Source: Azospirillum thiophilum (lineage in GTDB: Bacteria; Pseudomonadota; Alphaproteobacteria; Azospirillales; Azospirillaceae). From it: a stretch of DNA of 64,000 nucleotides. The notes under the pieces were generated by a model, which saw only the letters and a program-made list of their open reading frames with translations, searched no databases and had not been told where the DNA came from. A program made the position numbers and the translations under genes. Positions 10,138 to 22,122 of the stretch are shown here, one piece after another. The stretch is taken from assembly GCF_001305595.1 (NCBI RefSeq), contig NZ_CP012401.1, forward strand, positions 2,615,001 through 2,679,000. The letters run 5' to 3'. The stretch's first letter is position 1; every line of letters begins with the position of its first letter.

Positions 10138-11315
10138 CCGGCTACCGCCGCGACCCGCTCGCGCCGGTCCAGCACACCGCTCGCCAGGGTCAGGGCAAGG
10201 CCGCCCAGCACGAACAGCCCGCCGACCCAGGGCGTGGCGCCGAGGCCGAGCGGGGAGGACACCACCTGCCCGCCGAAGAAGGCCCCCACCGCGATGCCCA
10301 GGTTGAAGGCGGCGATGTTGAGGGCGGAGGCGACGTCGACCGCCCCCGGCGCATGGCGCTCTGCCAGTTGGACGACGTAGAGCTGAAGACCGGGGACGTT
10401 GGCGAAGGCCAGCGCCCCCATGCCGGCCAGCGTGATCAAAGCCGGAATCTTGGCATCGGCGGTGAAGGTGAAGACAATCAGGACCACCGCCTGCAGGGCG
10501 AACAGCCAGGCCAGCGCCCGCACCGGCCGGCGGTTCGCCAACCTGCCGCCGACGACGTTGCCGACCGCGATCGCCGCGCCATACAGCACCAGCACAAGGC
10601 TGACGGTCGAATTCGAGAAGCCGGTGATCGTCTCCAGGATCGGCGCCAGGAAGGTGAAGGCGACGAAGGTGCCGCCATAGCCGAGCGCGGTGATGGCGAA
10701 GGCCAGGAGCAGCCGCGGATTGGCCAGGACGCCCAGCTGTGTGCCGAAACCGGCGGCCGGCGGCTGGCTCAGCCGCGCCGGCACCAGCGCCGCCACTCCC
10801 AATCCGCCGACTACGCCCAGTGCCGAAACCGCCAGGAAGGTGGCGCGCCAGCCATAGGTCTGGCCGATCCAGGTGCCCAGCGGTACGCCGGTTACGATGG
10901 CGATGGTCAGGCCGGAGAACATCATGGCGATGGCCGATGCCCGCTTGTCCTCCGGCACCAGATCGGCGGCGATGGTTGAGCCGACCGAGAAGAAGACGCC
11001 ATGGGCGAAGGCGCTCAGCACGCGGGCAACCAGCAGCGTCTCGTAATTAGGGCTGACGCCGGCCAGCAGGTTGCCGGCAACGAAGATACCCATCAGGCCC
11101 AGCAGCAGCGGCTTGCGCCGCAGCCGGCCGGTCAGCGCGGTCAGCACCGGGGCGCCAAAGGTGACGCCGAGGGCATAGACGCTGACCACCATCCCCGCCA
11201 GCGGCAGGCTGACATCCAGATCGCTCGCCACGGTGGGCAGAAGACCGACGACGACGAACTCCGTCGTCCCGATCGCATAGGCGCTGATCGCCAGCGCCAG
11301 CAGTGCGAGAGGCAT
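10134..11315 (-). CDS. MFS exporter, DHA1 (AraJ-like) family
   Basis: The start at 11315 (MPLALLALAISAYAIGTTEF) gives 393 residues with about 12 transmembrane helices. A 26-codon longer form is possible but would add a hydrophilic tail and occupy the shared promoter region. The motif GTTEFVVVGLLP in helix 1 and the loop 2-3 motif GRLRRKPLLLG are typical of DHA1 exporters such as AraJ/YdhP. Substrates of this group are usually sugars or drugs; none can be assigned. It is divergent from a LysR-type regulator, a common arrangement in which the regulator controls the exporter. Confidence 0.9.
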   Translation of the reverse strand: MPLALLALAISAYAIGTTEFVVVGLLPTVASDLDVSLPLAGMVVSVYALGVTFGAPVLTALTGRLRRKPLLLGLMGIFVAGNLLAGVSPNYETLLVARVLSAFAHGVFFSVGSTIAADLVPEDKRASAIAMMFSGLTIAIVTGVPLGTWIGQTYGWRATFLAVSALGVVGGLGVAALVPARLSQPPAAGFGTQLGVLANPRLLLAFAITALGYGGTFVAFTFLAPILETITGFSNSTVSLVLVLYGAAIAVGNVVGGRLANRRPVRALAWLFALQAVVLIVFTFTADAKIPALITLAGMGALAFANVPGLQLYVVQLAERHAPGAVDVASALNIAAFNLGIAVGAFFGGQVVSSPLGLGATPWVGGLFVLGGLALTLASGVLDRRERVAAVAG

Positions 11316-11442
11316 TTCATTGGCTCCATTGTCTGCGGACTGTGCAGGGGAGACCATGTGCGCCATAAGGTGGAGAACGGGAATGCCTGCCATATTCCCA
11401 TGATTTTGTCATTCAAGGACAAGGCAAGGACGAGGTGACGGC

Positions 11443-12384
11443 ATGAGCGATCCACGCGCCTGGGAAATGCGGGTGTTCCTGCGTGTCGCGAGCCACGGCA
11501 GCTTCAGCGCCGCCGGCCGCGACGTCGGGATGACCCCGTCCTCGACCGCCAAGCTGGTCGGCCGGCTGGAGGAGCGGCTGGGGGTGCGTCTGGTCGAACG
11601 TTCGACCCGCAGGCTGCGGCTGACCGCGGAGGGGGACCTGTACCGCGAACGGGCCGAAGCCCTGCTGGGGGACATGGATGCGCTGGATGCGGAGATCGCC
11701 GGCGGTGCCCGGACCCCGACCGGGCCGGTCCGCATCAACGCCTCGGTTCCCTTCGGCCATCACTGCCTGCTGCCGCTGCTGCCGGAATTCCTGCGCGACC
11801 ATCCCGGCATCACGCTGGACGTTACCATGACGGACGAGGTGGTGGATCTCTACGCCGCCCGCGTCGACATCGCGTTCCGCGCCGGCCCCTTGAGCGATTC
11901 GGCCCTGCTGGCGCAGCGGCTGGGCACGGTGCGCCGGCGGATCGTCGCATCGCCCGGCTATCTGGAGCGCAAGGGCGTGCCGTTGACCGCCGCCGACCTG
12001 GAGACGCACGACTGCCTGGGGTTCAATTTCCGCCGTGCCGCCGCGGTCTGGCCGCTGAAGTCCGGCGGCCGGCTGGTCGACCGCGAGGTGCCCACCCGCG
12101 TGCTCGCCAACAATGGCGAGACCGTGCGCCACATGGCCCTGCTGGGGCTCGGGCTGGGGCGGCTTGCCGAGTACCATGTCCGCGACGATCTGCGGGACGG
12201 GCGGCTGCGGACGGTGCTGGACGGGGTGCTGGTCGATACCGAGGAAATCCACGCGGTCTATACCGGCCGCGAGCGGGTGCCGCGTCGTGTACGCGCCTTC
12301 CTGGATTTCATGACCCCGCGCCTGCGCGCCCGGCTGGCGGGGCAAGGCTTTCCAGACCGACCCGTCCGGGAAAGCGCATCCTGA
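11443..12384 (+). CDS. LysR-family transcriptional regulator
   Basis: This 313-residue protein has an N-terminal winged helix-turn-helix (residues 5-64, VASHGSFSAAGRDVGMTPSS) and a type 2 periplasmic-binding-like effector domain (about 90-295). The start lies 127 bases from the divergent MFS exporter start, so the pair probably shares a regulated promoter. The stop is followed by a strong hairpin. The family assignment is secure; the effector is unknown. Confidence 0.93.
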   Translation: MSDPRAWEMRVFLRVASHGSFSAAGRDVGMTPSSTAKLVGRLEERLGVRLVERSTRRLRLTAEGDLYRERAEALLGDMDALDAEIAGGARTPTGPVRINASVPFGHHCLLPLLPEFLRDHPGITLDVTMTDEVVDLYAARVDIAFRAGPLSDSALLAQRLGTVRRRIVASPGYLERKGVPLTAADLETHDCLGFNFRRAAAVWPLKSGGRLVDREVPTRVLANNGETVRHMALLGLGLGRLAEYHVRDDLRDGRLRTVLDGVLVDTEEIHAVYTGRERVPRRVRAFLDFMTPRLRARLAGQGFPDRPVRESAS

Positions 12385-12390
12385 AACGAC

Positions 12391-12420
12391 ATCGGCCGGA
12401 TGACGAGGCATCCGGCCGAT
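12391..12420. terminator. bidirectional hairpin between lysR gene and ssb
   Basis: ATCGGCCGGATG and CATCCGGCCGAT form perfect 12-base arms around the loop ACGAGG. The hairpin sits between two convergent genes. No strong T-tract follows on either strand, so it may work with Rho or simply protect 3' ends. Confidence 0.6.
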
Positions 12421-12456
12421 CGATCGCAATTGACCCGCTCGTCGGTCAGAACGCGG

Positions 12457-12963
12457 TCAGAAGGGGATCTCGTCGTCGAGATCCTCGTGACGGGGCGGGG
12501 CGCCACCACCGCTGCGGCCGCCACCCGACTGGCCGCCACCGGACTGGCCACCGCCATAATTGCCGCCGCCGCCGTAGCCGCCGCCACTCCCACCGCCGCG
12601 CGACTCGTAGCCGCCGCTGCTGCTGCCGCCACCGAAGCTGCCGCCGCCCTCTTCGCGGGCACCGCCGGTGAAGTCGATCTCGGCCACGCGGACGGACAGG
12701 CCGGCGCCGCGGGTGCCGTCGCGCTTCTCATACTCGCGCAGGGTGACTTCGCCCGACACGACGACGCTCTTGCCCTTGGTCAGGTGCGGCGCGAGCGACT
12801 CGGCGCGCCGGCCCCAGATCGAGCAATCGACCCACTGGGTCGTCTTGCGTTCGCCGAAACCGACATCGTTGGCGACGCGGAAACCCAGCACCTTCTCGCC
12901 GCTCTGGGTCGTGCGCAATTCGCCGTCCGCGCCCAGGCGTCCCGTAAACGTCCAAACATTCAT
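12457..12963 (-). CDS. ssb: single-stranded DNA-binding protein
   Basis: This 168-residue protein has an OB-fold domain at residues 1-105 (MNVWTFTGRLGADGELR, then TQWVDCSIWG). A glycine/serine-rich linker of about 50 residues follows, ending in the acidic interaction tip DDEIPF that recruits DNA-repair and replication partners. The OB domain starts directly at MNVWTFTGRLG and is somewhat divergent from the longest ssb forms. A second chromosomal ssb is therefore possible elsewhere. The gene is monocistronic in appearance, with convergent or distant neighbours. Confidence 0.93.
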   Translation of the reverse strand: MNVWTFTGRLGADGELRTTQSGEKVLGFRVANDVGFGERKTTQWVDCSIWGRRAESLAPHLTKGKSVVVSGEVTLREYEKRDGTRGAGLSVRVAEIDFTGGAREEGGGSFGGGSSSGGYESRGGGSGGGYGGGGNYGGGQSGGGQSGGGRSGGGAPPRHEDLDDEIPF

Positions 12964-13279
12964 CGCTCGTTGCTCCTAAGCGCGAGTGTCCCAGCATCCA
13001 TGCCGACCCGTCAGGATGCCTGGCGGAGGCACCCAGATGCCGAGGGTTCCCATTCGCAGGGCCGGCTGTTCAAAATGGCGACCATCCCCCCGGTCCCGCG
13101 CAACGAAGCACGATGGACCGACGCCGGTCAACCGCCGTCGGACACGCCCTGGCGATACACGGACCGACGCACTCGCCCCGCCGTTCCGCACCAGAACACT
13201 CCATGAACAAATATAGCAGAGGAACGGTTGCGGGAAAACCGTTTCCTTCGAGCATGGAAGGGGGAGCGCGTGACTCCGC
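12964..13279. other. gene-free stretch upstream of ssb
   Basis: The 316 bases between the ssb start and the response regulator stop hold no credible gene. Open frames here lack codon bias and ribosome-binding sites. The region should contain the ssb promoter, but no clear -35/-10 pair or LexA-type box was recognised. Confidence 0.6.
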
Positions 13280-13708
13280 TCAGCGCAGGCGGCGTGCCGC
13301 CAAATCGAGCGCGACCTTCAGCTGGGCATGCGAAAAAGGCTTGTGCACCACGCCGAGCGGATAGGTCTCGGTGATGCGGGCCATGGTGCCGTGGTCGCTG
13401 TTGCCCGACAGGTAGATGGAGCGGACGCCATGGCCGAGGTTCAACCGCCGCGCCACGGCGATGCCGTCGCCACCGCCCAGCCGCACATCCATCAACGCAA
13501 GGTCGGGACGCTCCCGCGTGGCCAGTTCGACCGCTTCATCCTCGGTCCGCGCGACGCCGCACAGGGTATGGCCCAGATCCGTCACCACGACCGCCAGCAT
13601 GTCGGCGGCGGCACCGTCATCCTCCACCACGATCAGACGCAGGGGCTGTCCTGGCACACGGGTGCGCTGGGACGCATTCGGCTTGACGACGGCGTCGATC
13701 CTGAGCAT
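13280..13708 (-). CDS. receiver-domain-only response regulator
   Basis: This 142-residue protein is a single CheY-like receiver with a 20-residue N-terminal extension. The acidic pair is VEDDG, the phosphoacceptor aspartate sits in LALMDVRL, the conserved Ser is in IYLSGNS and the Lys in VHKPFS. There is no output domain. It resembles the receiver half of PhyR-like proteins. No histidine kinase is adjacent. It lies next to the uncharacterised cluster at 13.9-18.0 kb, but a functional tie is only inferred. Confidence 0.88.
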   Translation of the reverse strand: MLRIDAVVKPNASQRTRVPGQPLRLIVVEDDGAAADMLAVVVTDLGHTLCGVARTEDEAVELATRERPDLALMDVRLGGGDGIAVARRLNLGHGVRSIYLSGNSDHGTMARITETYPLGVVHKPFSHAQLKVALDLAARRLR

Positions 13709-13936
13709 GCGACCGACCTCGGGGCATCACGACGTTGAAGCGGCAGGCGGCGAATATTGGTAAAATTCCGTTTACCAATAGGCCGTTTGTACTAACACTC
13801 CCCCGAATTTGCAAGCTCAATCGTTCAGATCCTGACCTTTCGCTCGACTCGATGCAGAAAGAGCGCAGTTCAGGCAACCCGTCCCGGTTCGGGTCGGGAA
13901 ATATCCGTCGACAGCCGTCCTTGCGACCGCAAACCG

Positions 13937-14707
13937 TCAACGTCCGGCCGGACCCAGCCAGTCGATTCCACCAGCGGGGCGGGGGCCGCCGGTCCCGCCG
14001 TTGCGCACCGTCGCCGCGCGCGACGGCGGCGGGACCGGCGCCGGTTCGCTGGCGAGCCAAGAGGCTTGGCCGTCCGCCGGCCGCGCCGCCGACCGTGCCT
14101 CCGACAGGGGATCGGGAGCGGATCGCGCAGGTTCCGGCGCCGGGTCCGCAGACACGGCCGCGGGCTGAATCAAAGGCTTGATCGCCGCCGGCAGCGGCCG
14201 TTCGGTGATCGCAGCGGAGCGGAACGGGATGGCGGGCGGCTGCACCTGGGGCGCCGGCTCCGCCGCGAACGGCCGGGGCGGCTCCGATTGGCGCGGCGGC
14301 GGCTCGGCAAGCTCGTCCCAGGCTGCCGCCGGACGCAGGCGGGGGGCATCGGCGGCGCCCAGCCGGGACGGGCGTTCATCATCCGCGAGCGCGCCGGTCT
14401 GGGTGTCGAGCCGCCGCGCCTGTTCGCGAATCTCCAGAAGGGTGGTCACCGCGAGTTGCAGAAGCGGAGCCAGAGCCATGGGATCGGCCATCTGCTCCGC
14501 GCTCAGCGCGGCGAAGCGGTCGCGAACCTCCTCCACCGCCCGCTCGACGCCGTCGCGCAGCGCACCGGCCTCATGCGCGAGCCGTTCCAGATCCTCGCGC
14601 AGGGCCGATATCTCGCAAGCCTGCCGCAACTCGTGGAAGCCGACGATCCCAGCCCCCGGCGCGGATGCGGATCGCCGGTCCCGTGACGAACCAAAATCGT
14701 GAGGCAT
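13937..14707 (-). CDS. hypothetical protein, coiled-coil N-terminus and disordered Pro/Ala-rich C-terminus
   Basis: The ATG at 14707 (MPHDFGSS) gives 256 residues; a 25-codon longer form is possible. Residues 25-110 are predicted by eye to be helical or coiled coil (ALREDLERLAHEAGALRDGV, then LLQLAVTTLLEIREQARRLD). Residues 115-256 are rich in Pro, Ala, Glu and Arg and look disordered. No signal peptide or membrane segment is present and no family was recognised. It is divergent from the ParA-like fusion with about 240 bases between starts, which hints at shared regulation. Confidence 0.65.
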   Translation of the reverse strand: MPHDFGSSRDRRSASAPGAGIVGFHELRQACEISALREDLERLAHEAGALRDGVERAVEEVRDRFAALSAEQMADPMALAPLLQLAVTTLLEIREQARRLDTQTGALADDERPSRLGAADAPRLRPAAAWDELAEPPPRQSEPPRPFAAEPAPQVQPPAIPFRSAAITERPLPAAIKPLIQPAAVSADPAPEPARSAPDPLSEARSAARPADGQASWLASEPAPVPPPSRAATVRNGGTGGPRPAGGIDWLGPAGR

Positions 14708-14946
14708 CCTGCCCAACCCCGATTCCAAGCCCAGCCCGAAACGGATCGGGCAGTTGTGTTGCAAACCACGCAACCGGACCACGGTTCCAAAAGCGAACGT
14801 CGGGCGCCGGTGCTGGAACGTCGGCGAAGTCGCTGGGCGTCACGACCGACGCCCCCGGACCGGGACCGATGTTTAGCGCTGTTGAAGTCGTTTGGAAACC
14901 GTTTGCGCGTGATGGCCGCTTGTACTATTTTTTCGGCCCCGGGGGA

Positions 14947-16806
14947 ATGGATTCCTTGCGATCCAACATCCAGGCGTCTCCCCGCCGCCTTTTCATCTTG
15001 CCGGAATCCCATACGGTGTCGATCGACCGCTCGGAACTTGAACGGCTCCTTGCCGATCGCCCGGCTGGCAGCCGCAGCGCCATGCAGGCGGTTCGCGAAA
15101 GCTATGGCGACATCGGGCTGATGCGCGAACGCGGCCTGTCATGGGCGGAAATCTCCGACCTGCTGGCCACGCTGGGCGTAACCGCCCGCGACAACCAGCC
15201 GATCTCGCCGGTTACCCTGCGCTCCGCCTTCTTCCTGGTCGGCAACGAGGGGCGTGGCGAGCAGGCCGGCGACACTGCCCGCCCGACCGTCGCCACGCCT
15301 GCGGAAACCCTGGCCGCCGTCCATGAAGCGGCACTGTCCGCCGGCACGAAGGAGGAGATGGAGGGGGAGGATGCCGGCGCAGGGATGGCCGGAAGTCCCG
15401 ACACCCCAGACGTCAACCAAGACGCACCTCAGCTCGAAGCCCCCGCGGCCGAGCCCGCGACAGCAACCGCTTCCGCCGCCGAGCCGATTGCGACCGATCT
15501 CTCTGAGGCAATTCCCCCGGCGGACGATCCCCCGGCGGACGATGAAGCCCCTGCGGCGAACGATCCGGACGACATGGCGGAGGAGGCGTCCGCCACCGAA
15601 GCCCCGACCCCGGCCGAACAACCCGAAGTCCAACAGCCCGAAACGGCAGTCGACTCTCCTGTGCCGGAGGCACCTGACGGCACTCAGGTAGAAGCCGGTC
15701 AGGAACCACCCCATCATGAGGCGCCGAAACCCGCCTCCCCTGCCCCCAACCTGCTGGCACCCGCGCTCGACCCGGCCGCCGAGTCCGTTGCCATCCCCAT
15801 TGCAGACGAACCTGTGCTCGATCCCGTTACGGACGACTCGCCCTCCGCCGGGCCGCTGGCCGAAGCGCCGGCCGCCGACGATGCAGGGCCGTCATCCGAA
15901 TCGACACCCAAGCCGGAACCGGCATCCGCGGCGGTCGCACAAAGCACCCGCTCCTTGGCGTCTCCCGATAAAATGTCCCACGACAAACCAACAAACGTAC
16001 ACTGGAAAGGCGATCGCATGCTGGGCACGATCTTCGTCCTCAATGACCGCGGCGGCGTCGGCAAGACGCTGCTGTCCCATCACCTGATGGCGACCGCCAT
16101 GCTCGAAGGCCTGCAATTGAAGGTCGTCGAGTACGAGGTGAACGAGCGTCTCGCCCGACTGTTCGGCCCGGACGTGGTCGAACATCGCCGCATCACGCAG
16201 GACTTCATGAACATGATGGGGTCGGCCGACGGCTTCTACGAGTTCTGGGACCTGATCGGGCCGGAACTGCAGCGCGGCGGCCGCCTGTTCGATTTCGGCG
16301 GCAACATCTCGCAATGGTTCTTCAACTGGGCCGAGGTGTCGGGCTTCGACTATTACGTCGGCGACGGCGAGCGGCTGACCTTCATGGTGCCGGTGACCGT
16401 CGACCTCGCCTCGCTGTCCACCGGCATGACCACGCTGGAGCGGGTGGCGACCATCGCCCCGAAGGCCAAGCGCGTCCTGGTGGAAAACGGCTTCTCCGGC
16501 CCCTTCTCGCAGCTGGAGGACAGCCAGTATGCCCGCCGCAAGGCCGAGATGGTGGAACGCGAGGGGCTGCATGTCATCTCGATGCCGCCCTGCACCGCCC
16601 CGGCCTGGGCGCGCCTGACCGGCCACCGGCTGGATCAGGTTGCGACGATGACGCGTGAGGATCTGGTGAAGCTGGGCATGACCCCGCCGGTCGCCTCTCG
16701 TTCGCTGATCATCATCCACGAATGGCTGCGCAACATGCGCCAGGCGCTGTCACCCTATCTGCACGACGCCTTCCGCCAGACCGCGACCGCGACCAAGGGC
16801 CGCTGA
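14947..16806 (+). CDS. fusion of a DNA-binding-like domain, acidic linker and divergent ParA-like ATPase
   Basis: The ATG at 14947 (MDSLRSNIQ) has a GGGGGA upstream and gives 619 residues. Residues 1-105 contain a helical block (YGDIGLMRERGLSWAEISDL, then ISPVTLRSAFF) resembling the helix-turn-helix part of TraK-like conjugation proteins. Residues 115-345 form an acidic Ala/Pro/Glu/Asp linker. From residue 358 a ParA/MinD-type P-loop domain begins. Its Walker A is NDRGGVGKTLL, so the usual signature lysine of KGGxGKT is Arg368, while the P-loop Lys373 is kept. The Walker-B-like strand reads LFDFGGN (Asp449) instead of the usual D-x-x-P. An in-frame ATG at 16018 with GGAAAGG before it, or one at 15973, could start an ATPase-only product. 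The function is unknown. The cluster context suggests positioning of some cargo at the membrane. Confidence 0.75.
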   Translation: MDSLRSNIQASPRRLFILPESHTVSIDRSELERLLADRPAGSRSAMQAVRESYGDIGLMRERGLSWAEISDLLATLGVTARDNQPISPVTLRSAFFLVGNEGRGEQAGDTARPTVATPAETLAAVHEAALSAGTKEEMEGEDAGAGMAGSPDTPDVNQDAPQLEAPAAEPATATASAAEPIATDLSEAIPPADDPPADDEAPAANDPDDMAEEASATEAPTPAEQPEVQQPETAVDSPVPEAPDGTQVEAGQEPPHHEAPKPASPAPNLLAPALDPAAESVAIPIADEPVLDPVTDDSPSAGPLAEAPAADDAGPSSESTPKPEPASAAVAQSTRSLASPDKMSHDKPTNVHWKGDRMLGTIFVLNDRGGVGKTLLSHHLMATAMLEGLQLKVVEYEVNERLARLFGPDVVEHRRITQDFMNMMGSADGFYEFWDLIGPELQRGGRLFDFGGNISQWFFNWAEVSGFDYYVGDGERLTFMVPVTVDLASLSTGMTTLERVATIAPKAKRVLVENGFSGPFSQLEDSQYARRKAEMVEREGLHVISMPPCTAPAWARLTGHRLDQVATMTREDLVKLGMTPPVASRSLIIIHEWLRNMRQALSPYLHDAFRQTATATKGR

Positions 16807-16844
16807 CGGTTCCAGGCGCCAGCGTTCAGGCGTTACGAAACGAA

Positions 16845-16870
16845 CAGGGGCGTCCTGCGGGGCGCCCCTG
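16845..16870 (+). terminator. hairpin after the ParA-like gene
   Basis: CAGGGGCG (16845-16852) pairs perfectly with CGCCCCTG (16863-16870). It is followed by CCCTTTTCC and further T-rich CGTTT repeats on the plus strand. Its position between convergent genes and the T-rich trailer support a terminator for the plus-strand gene. Confidence 0.6.
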
Positions 16871-16902
16871 CCCTTTTCCGTTTCCGTTTGCGTTTCTGGA
16901 CC

Positions 16903-17457
16903 TCAAGCGGCGCTGCGGGCCGGGCTGGCGCTGTACAGGTTTTCCTTGACCGGTGTCACCGAGCGCACATGATAGCCCGGCCGGGCGCTGAAGCGTCGGT
17001 TGGCGCGCTCTGCGGCCTCGCGGTCCGACTCCGCCCACACCAGATAGGTGCGACCGCGCGCCCATTCGGTGGCCAGCGGATGGACGGCATCGATCTCGCC
17101 GATCTGCTGGTTCACCACGGTGACCAGCCATTCCTTGTCGCCCGGATTGCGGCGGTCGGTCAGGATCAGGATCTGCGGGCGGCGCTTGGACTGCGCCTCC
17201 GTCAGGCGCTGTTGCACTTCGGCCTGCTTGCCGCGCAATTCCACCATGCCACGCACCAACTCGCCGATCTCGGCATGGAGCGCCTCTTCCTCGCGGTGCA
17301 GGCGGTGGATGGTGGCATCCAGCTTGTCCAGGTTGGACCGCACGCCACGGACGCGCTGGCGGGACTGCGATACCCGCTGCTCCACCGCCAGCAGCACGTT
17401 GCCGAGCCACGCCCCGATGGCGACGATCGCCAGGACGATGATGAAGTTGATCATCAT
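16903..17457 (-). CDS. membrane-anchored coiled-coil protein (second of a coupled pair)
   Basis: This 184-residue protein has a single N-terminal transmembrane helix (residues 3-24, NFIIVLAIVAIGAWLGNVLL). A coiled coil covers about residues 27-95 (heptad-like LDKLDATIHRLHREEEALHA). A small alpha/beta C-terminal domain (about 98-175) contains LILTDRRNP and TYLVWAESDREAAERANRRF. Its start overlaps the upstream stop in ATGA, so translation is coupled. The architecture parallels its upstream partner, which suggests hetero-oligomerisation. No known family was recognised. It is convergent with the ParA-like fusion. Confidence 0.72.
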   Translation of the reverse strand: MMINFIIVLAIVAIGAWLGNVLLAVEQRVSQSRQRVRGVRSNLDKLDATIHRLHREEEALHAEIGELVRGMVELRGKQAEVQQRLTEAQSKRRPQILILTDRRNPGDKEWLVTVVNQQIGEIDAVHPLATEWARGRTYLVWAESDREAAERANRRFSARPGYHVRSVTPVKENLYSASPARSAA

Positions 17458-18047
17458 GTGTGGGCACCGGCCTTCGTCCGCACGGTCGCCGGGGCGGATG
17501 GCACCCCACCCTTGCGCGCGTCGCCGCGCATGAAGCTCTTCTGGAACCCCATCTTGAAGGGAAAGGCGACCTCGACCATCTGCCGGGCCTCGTCGAAGCT
17601 GGAGGCCCAGACCTCCGCCACATTGGCGCAGCGCCAGATCGGGTTGAGCGCCGCCCGTTCCCCGCCCGCTCCCGCCGCGGAGGAAGCCTTCTCCTGGGTG
17701 ACCGTTGCGGCGAACTTCATCAGTCCGGCCTGCGGGTCGCCGACCTCGTGCACGAACAGCGGCGGCTGTTCGGCCAGATCCTTGATCAGCTTCTCGGCCT
17801 TGCGGATGTCGGTTTCCAGCCGGTGGCGGTCCGACGACTGGCTGTTGCGGCGCTGGACCAGCTGGTTGACGCGGTTCTGCAACTCGTGCGCCTCGGCATG
17901 CAGCACATAGATGCGGTTCTCGATCTGCTCCAGGCCGCTGCTCTTTTCCAGGATGTTCGGCAGGAAATCCTTCAGCATCATGGCGACCGGGACGGCGGCC
18001 AGCATGATGACGACGATGGCGATCAGGAACAGCGTCGTGTTCGACAT
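17454..18047 (-). CDS. membrane-anchored coiled-coil protein (first of a coupled pair)
   Basis: The chosen ATG at 18047 (MSNTTLFLIAIVVIML) gives 197 residues. A longer form would put a Pro-rich stretch before the membrane helix. The transmembrane helix is residues 5-25. A coiled coil follows at about residues 33-100 (LEQIENRIYVLHAEAHELQN). The C-terminal domain includes FVHEVGDPQAGLMKFAATVT and WASSFDEARQMVEVAFPF, which resembles in layout the C-terminal domain of the downstream partner. Both would expose the coiled coil and C-terminal domain on the same side of the membrane. The function is unknown. Confidence 0.72.
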   Translation of the reverse strand: MSNTTLFLIAIVVIMLAAVPVAMMLKDFLPNILEKSSGLEQIENRIYVLHAEAHELQNRVNQLVQRRNSQSSDRHRLETDIRKAEKLIKDLAEQPPLFVHEVGDPQAGLMKFAATVTQEKASSAAGAGGERAALNPIWRCANVAEVWASSFDEARQMVEVAFPFKMGFQKSFMRGDARKGGVPSAPATVRTKAGAHT

Positions 18048-18226
18048 CCGCCCGCCCGTTCTCCTCCCTGAAACCGGTGCCGTTCCGTCCGCCGGACGCG
18101 GTGGAACAGGCATCGCCACAGGTGAACGAGAATCAACGAACAATCCGCGTTCGTCAACGAATCGTCACGGTTCGGTCCGGATTTCGTCCCACAAGACCCG
18201 GACGCGGCGCGGGCGTCCGCACAGGC

Positions 18227-19414
18227 TCAGGACAGCGCCATCTCCGCCACTCGCTTCACCGCGTCGCGCACCGGCCCCGGCCGCGGAACGTCGGCGATGG
18301 TGGTGAACCAATGGCCGGGCGGATTGCGGCCGGCGGCGCGGCTCCAGGTCAATGACCGCAGCACCGCCTCCGCCTCCGGCGTGGGCGGCTGCGCCGGGTC
18401 GATGCCGTTCATCACCGCCCAGATCCCGGCCCAGCAGCGCCCGACCGACCAGGGATTGTAGCCGCCGCCGCCGACCACCAGCACCCGCGGCGCCAGCGGC
18501 AGCAGCGCCGCCACCGCCTCCCACAGCGCGCGGTTGGACAGCTCCAGCCGGCTCAGCGGATCCTCGGCCAGAGCATCGGCCCCGGTCTGGATCACCATCG
18601 CCTGCGGGCGGAAGGCACGGGCCAGCGGCAGGACCGCCGCCTCCATCACATGCACCATCTCGCTGTCGTTGAAGCCGGGCGGCACCGGCAGGTTGCGGGC
18701 CAAGCCGCCGGCCCGGTCCTCCGCCTTGCCGGTGTAGGGCCAGCGCCCATCCTCGTGGACCGAGACGGTCAACACCCGGTCGTCGTCGGCGAACGCCTCC
18801 TCCACCCCGTCGCCGTGATGGGCGTCGAGATCGACATACAACACCCGCTCCAGCCCATGGTCGAGCAGTTCCAGGATTCCGAGAACCGGCGCGTTGAAGT
18901 AGCAGAAGCCGCTGGCCCGGTCGCGGCGCGCATGATGGGTGCCGGCGGCCGGGGCATAGACCAGACCGGCCGGCCGGTCCCCCAGCAGCCGCGCCGCCTG
19001 GAGCGCCGAGCCGCTGCTGTGGGCCGGCCGCCGGTACATCTCGGCGAAGACCGGGTTTTCCAGCTTGCCGAGATTGTGGCGGGCCGCCGTCGCCTCGTCC
19101 ACCCGCTGCTCGGCCTCGGCCCGCTTCAGCGCCGCGATGTAGTCGAGGGTATGGAAGCGCGCCAGTTCGCGTTCGCTGGCGACATGGGTTTCGAGATAGA
19201 CCTGATCCGGCAGCCATCCCATGGCGCGGCTGAGGTCGATGGCGGTCGAGACGCGCGGGATCGCCAGCGGGTGCTTCGGCCCATAGGTCGAGCCGCGATA
19301 GATCTCGCCGCCGATGAACAGCGGGGTGCGGAACGGCGTGGTCAGGGGAGGGACTCCGTCATGTCCGCCACAAACTAGGCGGCGCCGCGGCCCGGTCAAG
19401 CGCTGATGGCTCAA
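18227..19414 (-). CDS. histone-deacetylase-family protein (AcuC/class II HDAC-like)
   Basis: The domain matches arginase-fold deacetylases. It has THHARRDRASGFCYFN around the catalytic histidines, the metal-binding DLDAHHGDGVEEAF motif, a further metal ligand Asp in QTGADALAEDPL, and the GGGGYNPW loop that ends with a glycine-rich turn. Bacterial members act on acetylated small molecules, polyamines or proteins, and this substrate is unknown. The start is uncertain. The longest form begins at a TTG (19414), and no ATG precedes the domain. A CTG about 22 codons further in follows a GGAG and would give LTTPFRTPLF as the N-terminus. Members usually start close to that point. Confidence 0.87.
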   Translation of the reverse strand: MSHQRLTGPRRRLVCGGHDGVPPLTTPFRTPLFIGGEIYRGSTYGPKHPLAIPRVSTAIDLSRAMGWLPDQVYLETHVASERELARFHTLDYIAALKRAEAEQRVDEATAARHNLGKLENPVFAEMYRRPAHSSGSALQAARLLGDRPAGLVYAPAAGTHHARRDRASGFCYFNAPVLGILELLDHGLERVLYVDLDAHHGDGVEEAFADDDRVLTVSVHEDGRWPYTGKAEDRAGGLARNLPVPPGFNDSEMVHVMEAAVLPLARAFRPQAMVIQTGADALAEDPLSRLELSNRALWEAVAALLPLAPRVLVVGGGGYNPWSVGRCWAGIWAVMNGIDPAQPPTPEAEAVLRSLTWSRAAGRNPPGHWFTTIADVPRPGPVRDAVKRVAEMALS

Positions 19415-19496
19415 GCGCTGAAGGCGCTTCCGCAGGACGGGAGCCGGTGCCGGCGATGCTTGCGGTCACGGATCGTCCGCGCCTATAGTCGCCGCC

Positions 19497-19588
19497 TTCA
19501 CTGGGGGGAGCCGATGGGCGGCTGAGAGGTTCCGTTGCGGAACGACCCCTGGAACCTGATCCGGTTCATGCCGGCGTAGGGATCAGTG
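19497..19588 (+). promoter_or_regulatory. TPP riboswitch (THI element)
   Basis: The conserved sequence blocks are present in order: GGGGAGCC, GGCTGAGAGG, ACCCCTGGAACCTGATC, then GCCGGCGTAGGGA. The closing P1 helix can be formed by CACTG (19499-19503) and CAGTG (19584-19588). The AGGGA at 19578-19582 is a natural Shine-Dalgarno sequence, six bases before the ATG at 19589, so the element most likely controls translation initiation. It precedes a thiamine-precursor ABC transporter, a standard target. Confidence 0.95.
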
Positions 19589-19660
19589 ATGCCAGACAAG
19601 ACGCATCCCCGGACCTGCCCCACCTCCCCGCGCCCGTGTCCGCGCCCGTGTCCGCGATGA
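19589..19660 (+). CDS. candidate 23-residue leader peptide between riboswitch and transporter
   Basis: The ATG directly after the riboswitch P1 helix has the riboswitch AGGGA as its Shine-Dalgarno at six-base spacing. It opens a 23-codon frame (MPDKTHPRTCPTSPRPCPRP, then CPR) whose TGA overlaps the ATG of the ATPase gene (ATGA, 19657-19660). It is out of frame with the ATPase. The peptide is rich in Pro, Arg and Cys and contains a tandem 12-base repeat (CGCCCGTGTCCG twice). It may serve only to couple riboswitch-controlled initiation to the transporter. Expression is not proven. Confidence 0.45.
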   Translation: MPDKTHPRTCPTSPRPCPRPCPR

Positions 19661-20388
19661 CCCCGCTGTCGGTCACCATCGCCGGGGCACGGCTGACCTA
19701 TGGCGGCACGCTGCTGTTCTCCGACCTGACGCTGGAGTTGCCGGCGGGGAAGACCACCTGCCTGCTGGGGCCGAGCGGCGTCGGCAAGACCACGCTGCTG
19801 CGCATCCTCGCCGGGCTGGCCGAGCCGGAGCCGCCCACCGCCGTCGTCACCGGCGACCGCCGGCCGCTGGCCGGCCGCATCGCCTACATGGCGCAGCAGG
19901 ATCTGCTGCTGCCCTGGCTGACGGTCCTGGACAATGTGCTGCTGGGCGACCGGCTGCGCCACCGCCGACCCGATGCCGCGCGGGTGGAGCGCGCCCGCGC
20001 CCTGCTGGAGCGCGTCGGGCTGGCGGGCCGCGAGCGCGACCGGCCCGCCGCCCTGTCCGGTGGCCAGCGGCAGCGCGTGGCGCTCGCCCGCACGCTGATG
20101 GAGGACAAGCCGCTGGTCCTGATGGACGAGCCCTTCTCGGCGCTCGACGCCATCACCCGCCTGCGCCTCCAGGAGACGGCGGCGGAGACGCTGGCCGGCC
20201 GCACCGTGCTGATGGTCACCCACGACCCGCTGGAGGCGCTGCGGCTCGGCGACCGCCTGCATGTGATGACCGGCCGCCCCGCCACCATGGGGCCGGCGCT
20301 GGAGCCTGCCGGCGCGGTCCCGCGCCGCGTCGACGATCCCGCCCTGCTGGCGCTCCAGGCCGAGCTGTTGCGGAGGCTGGCCGAATGA
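19657..20388 (+). CDS. thiZ: ABC transporter ATPase, thiamine-precursor type
   Basis: The ATG at 19657 (MTPLSVTIAGARLTYGG) gives 243 residues; a GTG seven codons upstream is an alternative. The Walker A is GPSGVGKTT, the Q-loop lies in MAQQDLLLPW, the ABC signature is LSGGQRQRVALAR, the Walker B is PLVLMDEPF and the switch His is in VTHD. Followed by an overlapping permease and an NMT1-type binding protein, and preceded by a TPP riboswitch, it fits the ThiXYZ uptake system for pyrimidine precursors of thiamine. ThiQ of thiamine uptake is the alternative, but the binding-protein family favours ThiXYZ. Confidence 0.88.
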   Translation: MTPLSVTIAGARLTYGGTLLFSDLTLELPAGKTTCLLGPSGVGKTTLLRILAGLAEPEPPTAVVTGDRRPLAGRIAYMAQQDLLLPWLTVLDNVLLGDRLRHRRPDAARVERARALLERVGLAGRERDRPAALSGGQRQRVALARTLMEDKPLVLMDEPFSALDAITRLRLQETAAETLAGRTVLMVTHDPLEALRLGDRLHVMTGRPATMGPALEPAGAVPRRVDDPALLALQAELLRRLAE

Positions 20389-21152
20389 AGGCGCTGCTGC
20401 GCGCCGCGGTCACCCTCGCCGTGCTGGCCGCCGGCTGGCAGGCGCTGGTCTGGGCCACCGGCCTGCCGCGCTACCTGCTGCCCGGGCCGCTGGCGGTGGC
20501 CGACGCCATGCGACGGCAGGCGCCGCTGCTGCTGAACCACGGGCTGACCACGCTGGCCGAGATCCTGATCGGGCTGGTCGCCGGCGTGGCGTTGGGCACG
20601 GTCAGCGCGCTGTTGCTGGCGCGCTTCCGCACCGCCCGGCGCTGGCTGATGCCGCTGCTGCTGGTCAGCCAGGCGATCCCGGTCTTCGCGCTGGCGCCGC
20701 TGCTGGTGCTGTGGCTGGGCTACGGCATGGCGTCCAAAATCGCCATGGCGGTGCTGGTCATCTATTTCCCGGTGACGACGGCGCTGTTCGACGGGCTGCG
20801 CCGCACCGATCCGGGCTGGCTCGACCTTGCCCGCACCATGGGCGCCTCGCCCGCCGCCATCCTGTGGACCATCCGCCTGCCGGCCGCCCTGCCCGCCTTC
20901 TGGTCCGGCGTGCGGGTGGCCGCCGCCGTCGCCCCCATCGGGGCGGTGATCGGCGAATGGGTCGGCTCCTCCTCCGGCCTCGGTTACCTGATGCTGCATG
21001 CCAACGCCCGCATGCAGATCGACCTTCTGTTCGCCGCCGTGCTGGTGCTGGGGCTGTTCGCGGTGACGCTCTATGCCGCGGTCGACGCCCTCGCCCGGCG
21101 CGCGCTGCCCTGGCAATCCGACACCCAGCCGGCCGATGACGCCGAATCATGA
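20385..21152 (+). CDS. thiX: ABC transporter permease, thiamine-precursor type
   Basis: This 255-residue protein has about six transmembrane helices and belongs to the BPD_transp_1 (SsuC/TauC-like) group. The EAA-type cytoplasmic loop is seen around ARTMGASPAAILWTIRLPAA. Its ATG overlaps the ATPase stop (ATGA), so translation is coupled. It forms the membrane channel with the neighbouring ATPase and binding protein. Confidence 0.88.
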   Translation: MKALLRAAVTLAVLAAGWQALVWATGLPRYLLPGPLAVADAMRRQAPLLLNHGLTTLAEILIGLVAGVALGTVSALLLARFRTARRWLMPLLLVSQAIPVFALAPLLVLWLGYGMASKIAMAVLVIYFPVTTALFDGLRRTDPGWLDLARTMGASPAAILWTIRLPAALPAFWSGVRVAAAVAPIGAVIGEWVGSSSGLGYLMLHANARMQIDLLFAAVLVLGLFAVTLYAAVDALARRALPWQSDTQPADDAES

Positions 21153-21180
21153 TTCAACCCCCGAAGGGAAGAGACGCCCG

Positions 21181-22122
21181 ATGAAGCACCTGTTCGCCGC
21201 CGGCCTGATGGCCGCCAGCCTGATGACGTCGCTGCCGGCGCTGGCTCAGGACAAGCTGTCCGTGATGCTGGACTGGTTCGTCAACCCGGACCATGCGCCG
21301 CTGGTCGTCGCCCAGGAAAAGGGCTTCTTCAAGGATGCCGGGCTCGACGTGACGCTGACCGCGCCGGCCGATCCCAACGACCCGCCCAAGCTGGTCGCCG
21401 CCGGCAAGACCGACCTCGCCGTGTCCTACCAGCCGCAGCTGATCCTGCATGTGGCAGAGGGGCTGCCGCTGGTCCGCGTCGGCACGCTGGTCTCCACGCC
21501 GCTGAACTCGGTCGTCGTGCTGCGCGACGGGCCGGTGAAGACGCTGAAGGACCTGAAGGGCCGCAAGATCGGCTTCTCCATCGCCGGATTCGAGGACGCG
21601 CTGCTCGGCGCCATGCTGGAGAAGCACGGGCTGAGCCTGAAGGACGTCGAGCTGGTGAACGTCAACTTCTCGCTGTCGCCATCGCTGCTGTCGGGGCAGG
21701 TCGACGCGGTGGTCGGCGCCTTCCGGAACTTCGAGCTGAACCAGATGGAGATCGAGAAGCATCCCGGCCGCGCCTTCTATCCCGAGGAGGAGGGCGTCCC
21801 GCCCTATGACGAGCTGATCCTGGTCGCGCAGAAGGGCAAGACCGACGATCCGCGCTTCAAGCGCTTCCTGTCGGCGGTGGAGCGGGCGACGCTCTACATC
21901 CTCAACCATCCGGAGGAGGCGCAGGCCGCCTTCGTCAAGGACCGGCCGGAGCTGAACGACGAGCTGAACCGCCGCGCCTGGGCCGACACGCTGCCGCGCT
22001 TTGCCCATAGCCCGGCCGCCCTGGATGCCGAGCGCTATACCCGCTTCGCCGAGTTCCTCAAGGCACGCGGCCTGATCAAGACGGTGGCCCCGGTCGACCA
22101 ATATGCGGTCGTGGTGAAGTAA
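21181..22122 (+). CDS. thiY: ABC transporter substrate-binding protein, NMT1/THI5-like
   Basis: This 313-residue protein has a Sec signal peptide (residues 1-22, cleavage near LPALAQ-DKL). The mature part is of the NMT1/THI5-like family, which binds pyrimidine precursors of thiamine. It has the typical opening LDWFVNPDHAPLVVAQEKGF and the block GRKIGFSIAGFEDALLGAML. It is the last gene of the riboswitch-controlled operon. Ligand assignment (formylaminopyrimidine or HMP) is inferred from family and riboswitch. Confidence 0.9.
   Translation: MKHLFAAGLMAASLMTSLPALAQDKLSVMLDWFVNPDHAPLVVAQEKGFFKDAGLDVTLTAPADPNDPPKLVAAGKTDLAVSYQPQLILHVAEGLPLVRVGTLVSTPLNSVVVLRDGPVKTLKDLKGRKIGFSIAGFEDALLGAMLEKHGLSLKDVELVNVNFSLSPSLLSGQVDAVVGAFRNFELNQMEIEKHPGRAFYPEEEGVPPYDELILVAQKGKTDDPRFKRFLSAVERATLYILNHPEEAQAAFVKDRPELNDELNRRAWADTLPRFAHSPAALDAERYTRFAEFLKARGLIKTVAPVDQYAVVVK

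Follow-up and report, generated by a model that had tools for sequence, protein, structure and literature searches.

ATPases of the StbB/TraL type are common on conjugative plasmids, and how they work is poorly understood. The pairs StbA–StbB of plasmid R388 and TraK–TraL of RP4 each combine a helix-turn-helix (HTH) protein with an ATPase of the ParA superfamily. StbA and StbB of R388 determine where in the cell the plasmid is placed, StbB departs from the canonical signature lysine, and an intergenic region with a regulatory role separates the stbAB genes from a divergent partner; the same work gives the relationships of StbB to TraL and of StbA to TraK (PMC3098194). The long ParA proteins, such as P1 ParA and F SopA, carry an N-terminal HTH on a ParA-like ATPase and are known to autoregulate (PMC2666795). 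IncC of RK2 is made in a long and a short form, IncC1 and IncC2, the short ATPase coming from an internal start behind an N-terminal extension, and a description of 2009 calls it unique among ParA genes in having two starts (PMC2666795).

The locus compared with these systems here lies in a window of 64,000 nucleotides, by which we mean the whole stretch of DNA that was analysed, from Azospirillum thiophilum (contig NZ_CP012401.1, positions 2,615,001 to 2,679,000). Azospirillum is a genus used as a crop inoculant. A preliminary description, made from the sequence of the window, had picked out four genes, called A to D below, and grouped them as one system. The features of the region are as follows, with g3 and g8 denoting two other genera of the same family, the Azospirillaceae.

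13280–13708, minus strand: single-domain response regulator, 142 aa (Pfam Response_reg, 3.3e-14)
13937–14707, minus strand: gene A, 256 aa, found genus-wide alongside B, with further occurrences in g3 and g8
14894–14933, plus strand: near-invariant element, promoter- or operator-like, GGAAACCGTTTGCGC-N9-GCTTGTACTATTTTTT
14944–14955, no strand: inverted repeat GGAAT-GG-ATTCC, visible in the sequence, with variants in most relatives
15016–16806, plus strand: predicted long form of B, 596 aa, GTG start (HTH, linker, ATPase)
15016–15255, plus strand: HTH domain of B (AlphaFold core and StbA profile match)
16005–16011, plus strand: GAAAGGC, putative internal ribosome-binding site of B (nucleotide conservation and codon evidence)
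16018–16806, plus strand: predicted short form of B, the ATPase alone, 262 aa, internal ATG; a separate gene in g3 and g8 genomes
16903–17457, minus strand: gene C, transmembrane (TM)-coiled-coil protein, 184 aa; separate module
17454–18047, minus strand: gene D, TM-coiled-coil protein, 197 aa; separate module, overlapping C by 4 bases
18227–19414, minus strand: histone-deacetylase-fold hydrolase gene (Pfam Hist_deacetyl, 1.5e-72)

All four reading frames listed in the preliminary description are present, and they are real genes, with orthologues of each found across the genus. It had called their functions unrecognised, and none of the four reaches any cut-off in Pfam or NCBIfam; an Rfam search of the region found nothing. 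The architectures it gave also agree with ours. A, described as disordered, has a helical N-terminus followed by disordered PA-rich sequence; B, described as joining a DNA-binding-like domain to a ParA-like ATPase, has a predicted N-terminal HTH and a ParA-like ATPase; and C and D are TM-coiled-coil proteins as proposed. The start of A is the ATG at 14707, not 14782, the MPxDF start being the conserved one, and that of B is the conserved GTG at 15016. Residues 11–46 of B's frame as initially translated were rejected as protein, since relatives conserve the DNA there in other frames, which makes this stretch conserved DNA.

B consists of an N-terminal HTH (aa 1–80), a variable PEA-rich disordered linker and the ATPase, with a median dN/dS of about 0.09 in the HTH and ATPase domains. 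AlphaFold, run on B with 22 close sequences, reached a mean pLDDT of 45 overall and modelled only the HTH (about 71–89 over residues 21–80); the ATPase part was unusable, so the ATPase fold rests on sequence profiles. By hhalign, the ATPase matches a family of plasmid and chromosomal ATPases, among them one of A. lipoferum plasmid p1, at 99.7% probability over 241 columns and the StbB profile at 96.8%; a pair of ParA proteins reaches 49%, limited to 36 columns of the P-loop. StbB sequences taken singly do no better against it than ParA, and B itself falls below the NCBIfam StbB cut-off. TraL was compared with the family through the NCBIfam model only; two intermediates of the family match that model, the p1 homologue at 2.5e-5 and another at 5.6e-4. 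To judge by these profiles, the ATPase of B is a ParA-superfamily protein of the StbB/TraL type. The HTH encoded just before it appears StbA-like, the similarity being modest: it matches the N-terminal domain of StbA at 76% probability over 38 columns, with a profile score of 29.9 where 20 column shuffles gave at most 12.2. A fold comparison with residues 9–87 of B returned weak helix-turn-helix-like matches (Z at most 4.2; KorA 3.2–3.4), and the solved StbA domain (7pc1) was absent from this list.

Several further features invite comparison with the plasmid systems. Like R388 StbB, B departs from the canonical signature lysine; its Walker A is NDRGGVGKT rather than KGGxGK[ST], and the Arg at the signature position is invariant in 22 aligned B sequences. 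Like stbAB, B faces a divergent gene across an intergenic region with a conserved element. Unlike StbAB, it is fused in one frame, chromosomal and part of the genus core, it lacks the array of 9-bp direct repeats, its divergent gene is a different one (A), and no relaxase gene is seen nearby (none was recognised by eye among the ORFs at 11000–21500 of the window). The N-terminal HTH and an expected autoregulation are shared with P1 ParA and F SopA, from which B differs in matching ParA only over the P-loop and in its Arg at the signature-lysine position. No ParB or parS was identified for B; A is without a recognised family, and the conserved element is present in a single exact copy.

The plasmid homologues in A. 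lipoferum 4B have the same order, HTH then ATPase, and the p1 HTH gene ahead of the ATPase matches the HTH of B (88%). They differ from B in being separate genes, plasmid-borne and beside a TrwC-type relaxase gene, and their ATPase is about 28% identical to that of B. This p1 pair (L066:3229-8744), with an RGGVGKT ATPase, is an unannotated stbAB-like pair, divergent from a 110-aa gene and the TrwC-type relaxase gene. An HTH–ATPase pair divergent from a TrwC-type relaxase gene is also the stbAB/trwABC layout of R388.

Genera g3 and g8 encode the HTH and the ATPase in two neighbouring genes. All 43 Azospirillum genomes that carry B have the two in one frame, and the linker frame is open, without a stop, in each of these genomes despite 35 different linker lengths. 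Just before the ATPase, the sequence GAAAGGC-N6-ATG persists inside the fused frame (codons AAAGGCGAT). The second start of B is, on this comparison of genera, apparently inherited from the formerly separate gene, and from the sequence we infer that one frame yields two products of 596 and 262 aa. With its predicted second start, B would resemble IncC1/IncC2 of RK2, where a ParA-like frame is extended at the N-terminus and a short ATPase starts internally (PMC2666795). The difference is that IncC is a genuine ParA whose partner is KorB/ParB, and B is chromosomal and of the StbB/TraL type.

Between A and B lies the near-invariant element GGAAACCGTTTGCGC-N9-GCTTGTACTATTTTTT, followed by the inverted repeat. 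Its exact pattern is present in 26 genome records, one copy in each, 25 of Azospirillum and one of Roseomonas genomospecies 6, and the window's own genome has a single exact site. Related cores sit between A and the HTH gene in the g3 genomes. No array of short direct repeats of the stbDR type is present in 14700–15030, where there is a single composite element, and the element shows no match to a sigma-70 consensus promoter. A sigma-54 site was considered and rejected, the expected spacing being GG-N10-GC and that in the window GG-N9-GC. Separately, TTTGGAAACCGT occurs as two inverted near-copies, at 14781–14792 and 14891–14902, 98 bases apart; the second overlaps the conserved element, and the two are possibly paired operator sites. 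One site per genome, at the promoter of B, points to autoregulation or to a lone anchor point more than to a regulon.

The main rival to a positioning ATPase is a purely regulatory role, in which B would be an autoregulated transcription factor or nucleotide-sensing repressor whose ATPase gates DNA binding, with no cargo. We consider this unlikely, though it has real points in its favour: the HTH domain, the one near-invariant site at B's own promoter with no second exact site, and the precedent of autoregulation among long ParA proteins (PMC2666795). Against it, the predicted separate short product, already kept before the two genes fused, points to a task for the ATPase apart from the HTH, and the ATPase is 80–98% identical across the three genera.

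On the internal start, a quite improbable alternative is that GAAAGGC is kept for a linker peptide, KGD, or as a DNA site, with only the fused protein made. Lys-Gly-Asp is indeed invariant in 22 aligned fused-form proteins. The lysine codon, however, is AAA in 43 of 43 genomes, although the ATPase domain uses AAG at 254 of 256 lysines and AAA at only 2, and the unfused ATPase genes have the same seven bases ahead of their ATG, in most cases without encoding KGD. GAAAGGC is identical in 42–43 of the 43 fused and 5 of 5 unfused genes (AAAGGC in 43 of 43 fused), always 6–8 nt from the ATG. As a Shine-Dalgarno sequence it is a moderate match only. Given the AAA codon next to an AAG-dominated domain, its conservation is best explained by selection on the bases and not on the peptide.

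Each of the four proteins was searched in 81–82 genomes of Azospirillaceae to see which neighbours travel together. All 43 Azospirillum genomes carrying B have A next to it in divergent orientation, and across the genus D and C form a pair. The two pairs adjoin in 20 of the 43 and are apart in the other 23 and in all 5 outgroup genomes. On a tree of 48 ATPase-domain sequences, the 20 genomes with the adjacent arrangement form a single branch (support 99/96) nested among genomes and outgroups in which A-B and D-C are apart; on this tree, the four-gene row is the product of one later rearrangement, a derived adjacency of single origin. In the separate arrangement, a histone-deacetylase-fold gene is followed by D-C and then by a DUF192 gene (the deacetylase-D-C linkage is seen in G005, G018, G024 and G030), and in the window's own genome DUF192, the ancestral neighbour of C, lies 150 kb away. 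Judged by gene order, then, there are two independent modules, response regulator-A-B and deacetylase-D-C.

That the four genes are one membrane-linked positioning system, with the ATPase acting on C and D, is very unlikely. All four do lie side by side in the window, and likewise in each of the 20 genomes of one clade. That togetherness goes back to the single derived event, D-C is linked elsewhere to the deacetylase and DUF192 genes, and two members of the adjacency clade (G012 and G027) have a decayed D or an unrecognisable C beside an intact A-B. The preliminary description, which marked the grouping as inference, had proposed checking whether the four genes co-occur in fixed order and took independent occurrence in related genomes as grounds for giving the grouping up; the pairs hold together and the quartet does not. 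What survives of its reading is B as a fusion of DNA-binding domain and ParA-type ATPase, with A as the usual partner; the grouping with C and D does not.

A has a conserved helical N-terminus (GFHELRQACEIS), a PA-rich disordered linker and a conserved C-terminal [DN]WL tail, all kept even in the two other genera. It is present in the g8 genome and in 2 of the 4 g3 genomes having B. It was not found beside B in the other two (G046 and G049), and so A is not strictly required for B. The response regulator is near A in 18 of 26 named Azospirillum loci (tblastn, 60–82% identity), the remainder being mostly too short to show it; in most loci of sufficient length it stands roughly 1 kb past A, and a search of two g3 loci did not find it. 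In the other module, structure prediction of C modelled only the TM-coiled-coil helix, with residues 2–91 as one helix, and a search of a plasmid collection gave no D homologue. The D and C family also has several scattered distant paralogues per Azospirillaceae genome (L046, L047, L048 and L049, among others); they have unrelated surroundings, and some are adjacent pairs.

B is present in 43 of 45 genus members, and outside Azospirillum its orthologues are confined to genera g3 and g8. Among 385 genomes sampled across the class, close matches came only from the two Azospirillum genomes drawn. In A. thiophilum it is on a 3.0-Mb contig of a 7.6-Mb genome in 8 contigs. By this distribution, B is a chromosomal core gene of Azospirillum, in all likelihood vertically kept. 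It is scarcely credible that A-B is what is left of an integrated plasmid, decaying and without present function: some ATPase relatives are plasmid-borne, one of them beside a relaxase gene, but B is in nearly every genus member, its dN/dS is low, its ATPase is at least 89% identical within the genus, and the neighbours read show no conjugation gene. One assembly has a frameshift near the C-terminus of B (G009:C1:2620804-2621572), if it is right, and one genome assigned to the genus (G042) is without A, B or close D-C orthologues and may be misplaced or an early branch. Three Azospirillaceae genera without B (g10–g12) have a chromosomal KTGGQGKT relative immediately upstream of an FtsE-like ABC ATPase gene, in the same orientation (L061:5597-7494, L062:6934-8896 and L063:6480-8172). 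The KTGGQGKT type and B never occur together, and the former could be the counterpart of B.

Taken as a whole, the account that we think probable is one of two modules, in which B is a domesticated, self-regulated, dual-start positioning ATPase of the StbAB type. B is here a relative of the plasmid StbA–StbB (TraK–TraL) pair, with the DNA-binding protein fused to its ParA-like ATPase. The long form, HTH-linker-ATPase, would be made from the GTG and the short form, the ATPase alone, from the retained internal start. We propose that the long form binds the near-invariant element in the A–B intergenic region; such binding would control the two divergent genes and at the same time anchor the ATPase on DNA. 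Dimers that depend on ATP, either long/short or short/short, would then give a cargo its position, and A, an extended protein, would serve B as adaptor. The membrane-anchored coiled-coil pair of the deacetylase-D-C module came to lie beside B through the one rearrangement. More tentatively, at somewhat less than even confidence, we suggest a history in which an Azospirillum ancestor domesticated, on its chromosome, a plasmid stability or conjugation pair of the StbA–StbB type. The two genes would have fused with both starts kept, and the product would now be a genus-wide positioning machine with A as new partner, an input from the response regulator and an anchor at one dedicated DNA site.

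The finding corrects the idea that the neighbouring membrane genes C and D share a system with B. Nature offers here a clean example of two genes merged into a single frame that, by prediction, still gives two products through its retained internal start. A chromosomal, single-copy core ATPase of the StbB/TraL type, free of conjugation machinery, would allow the ATPase to be studied alone.
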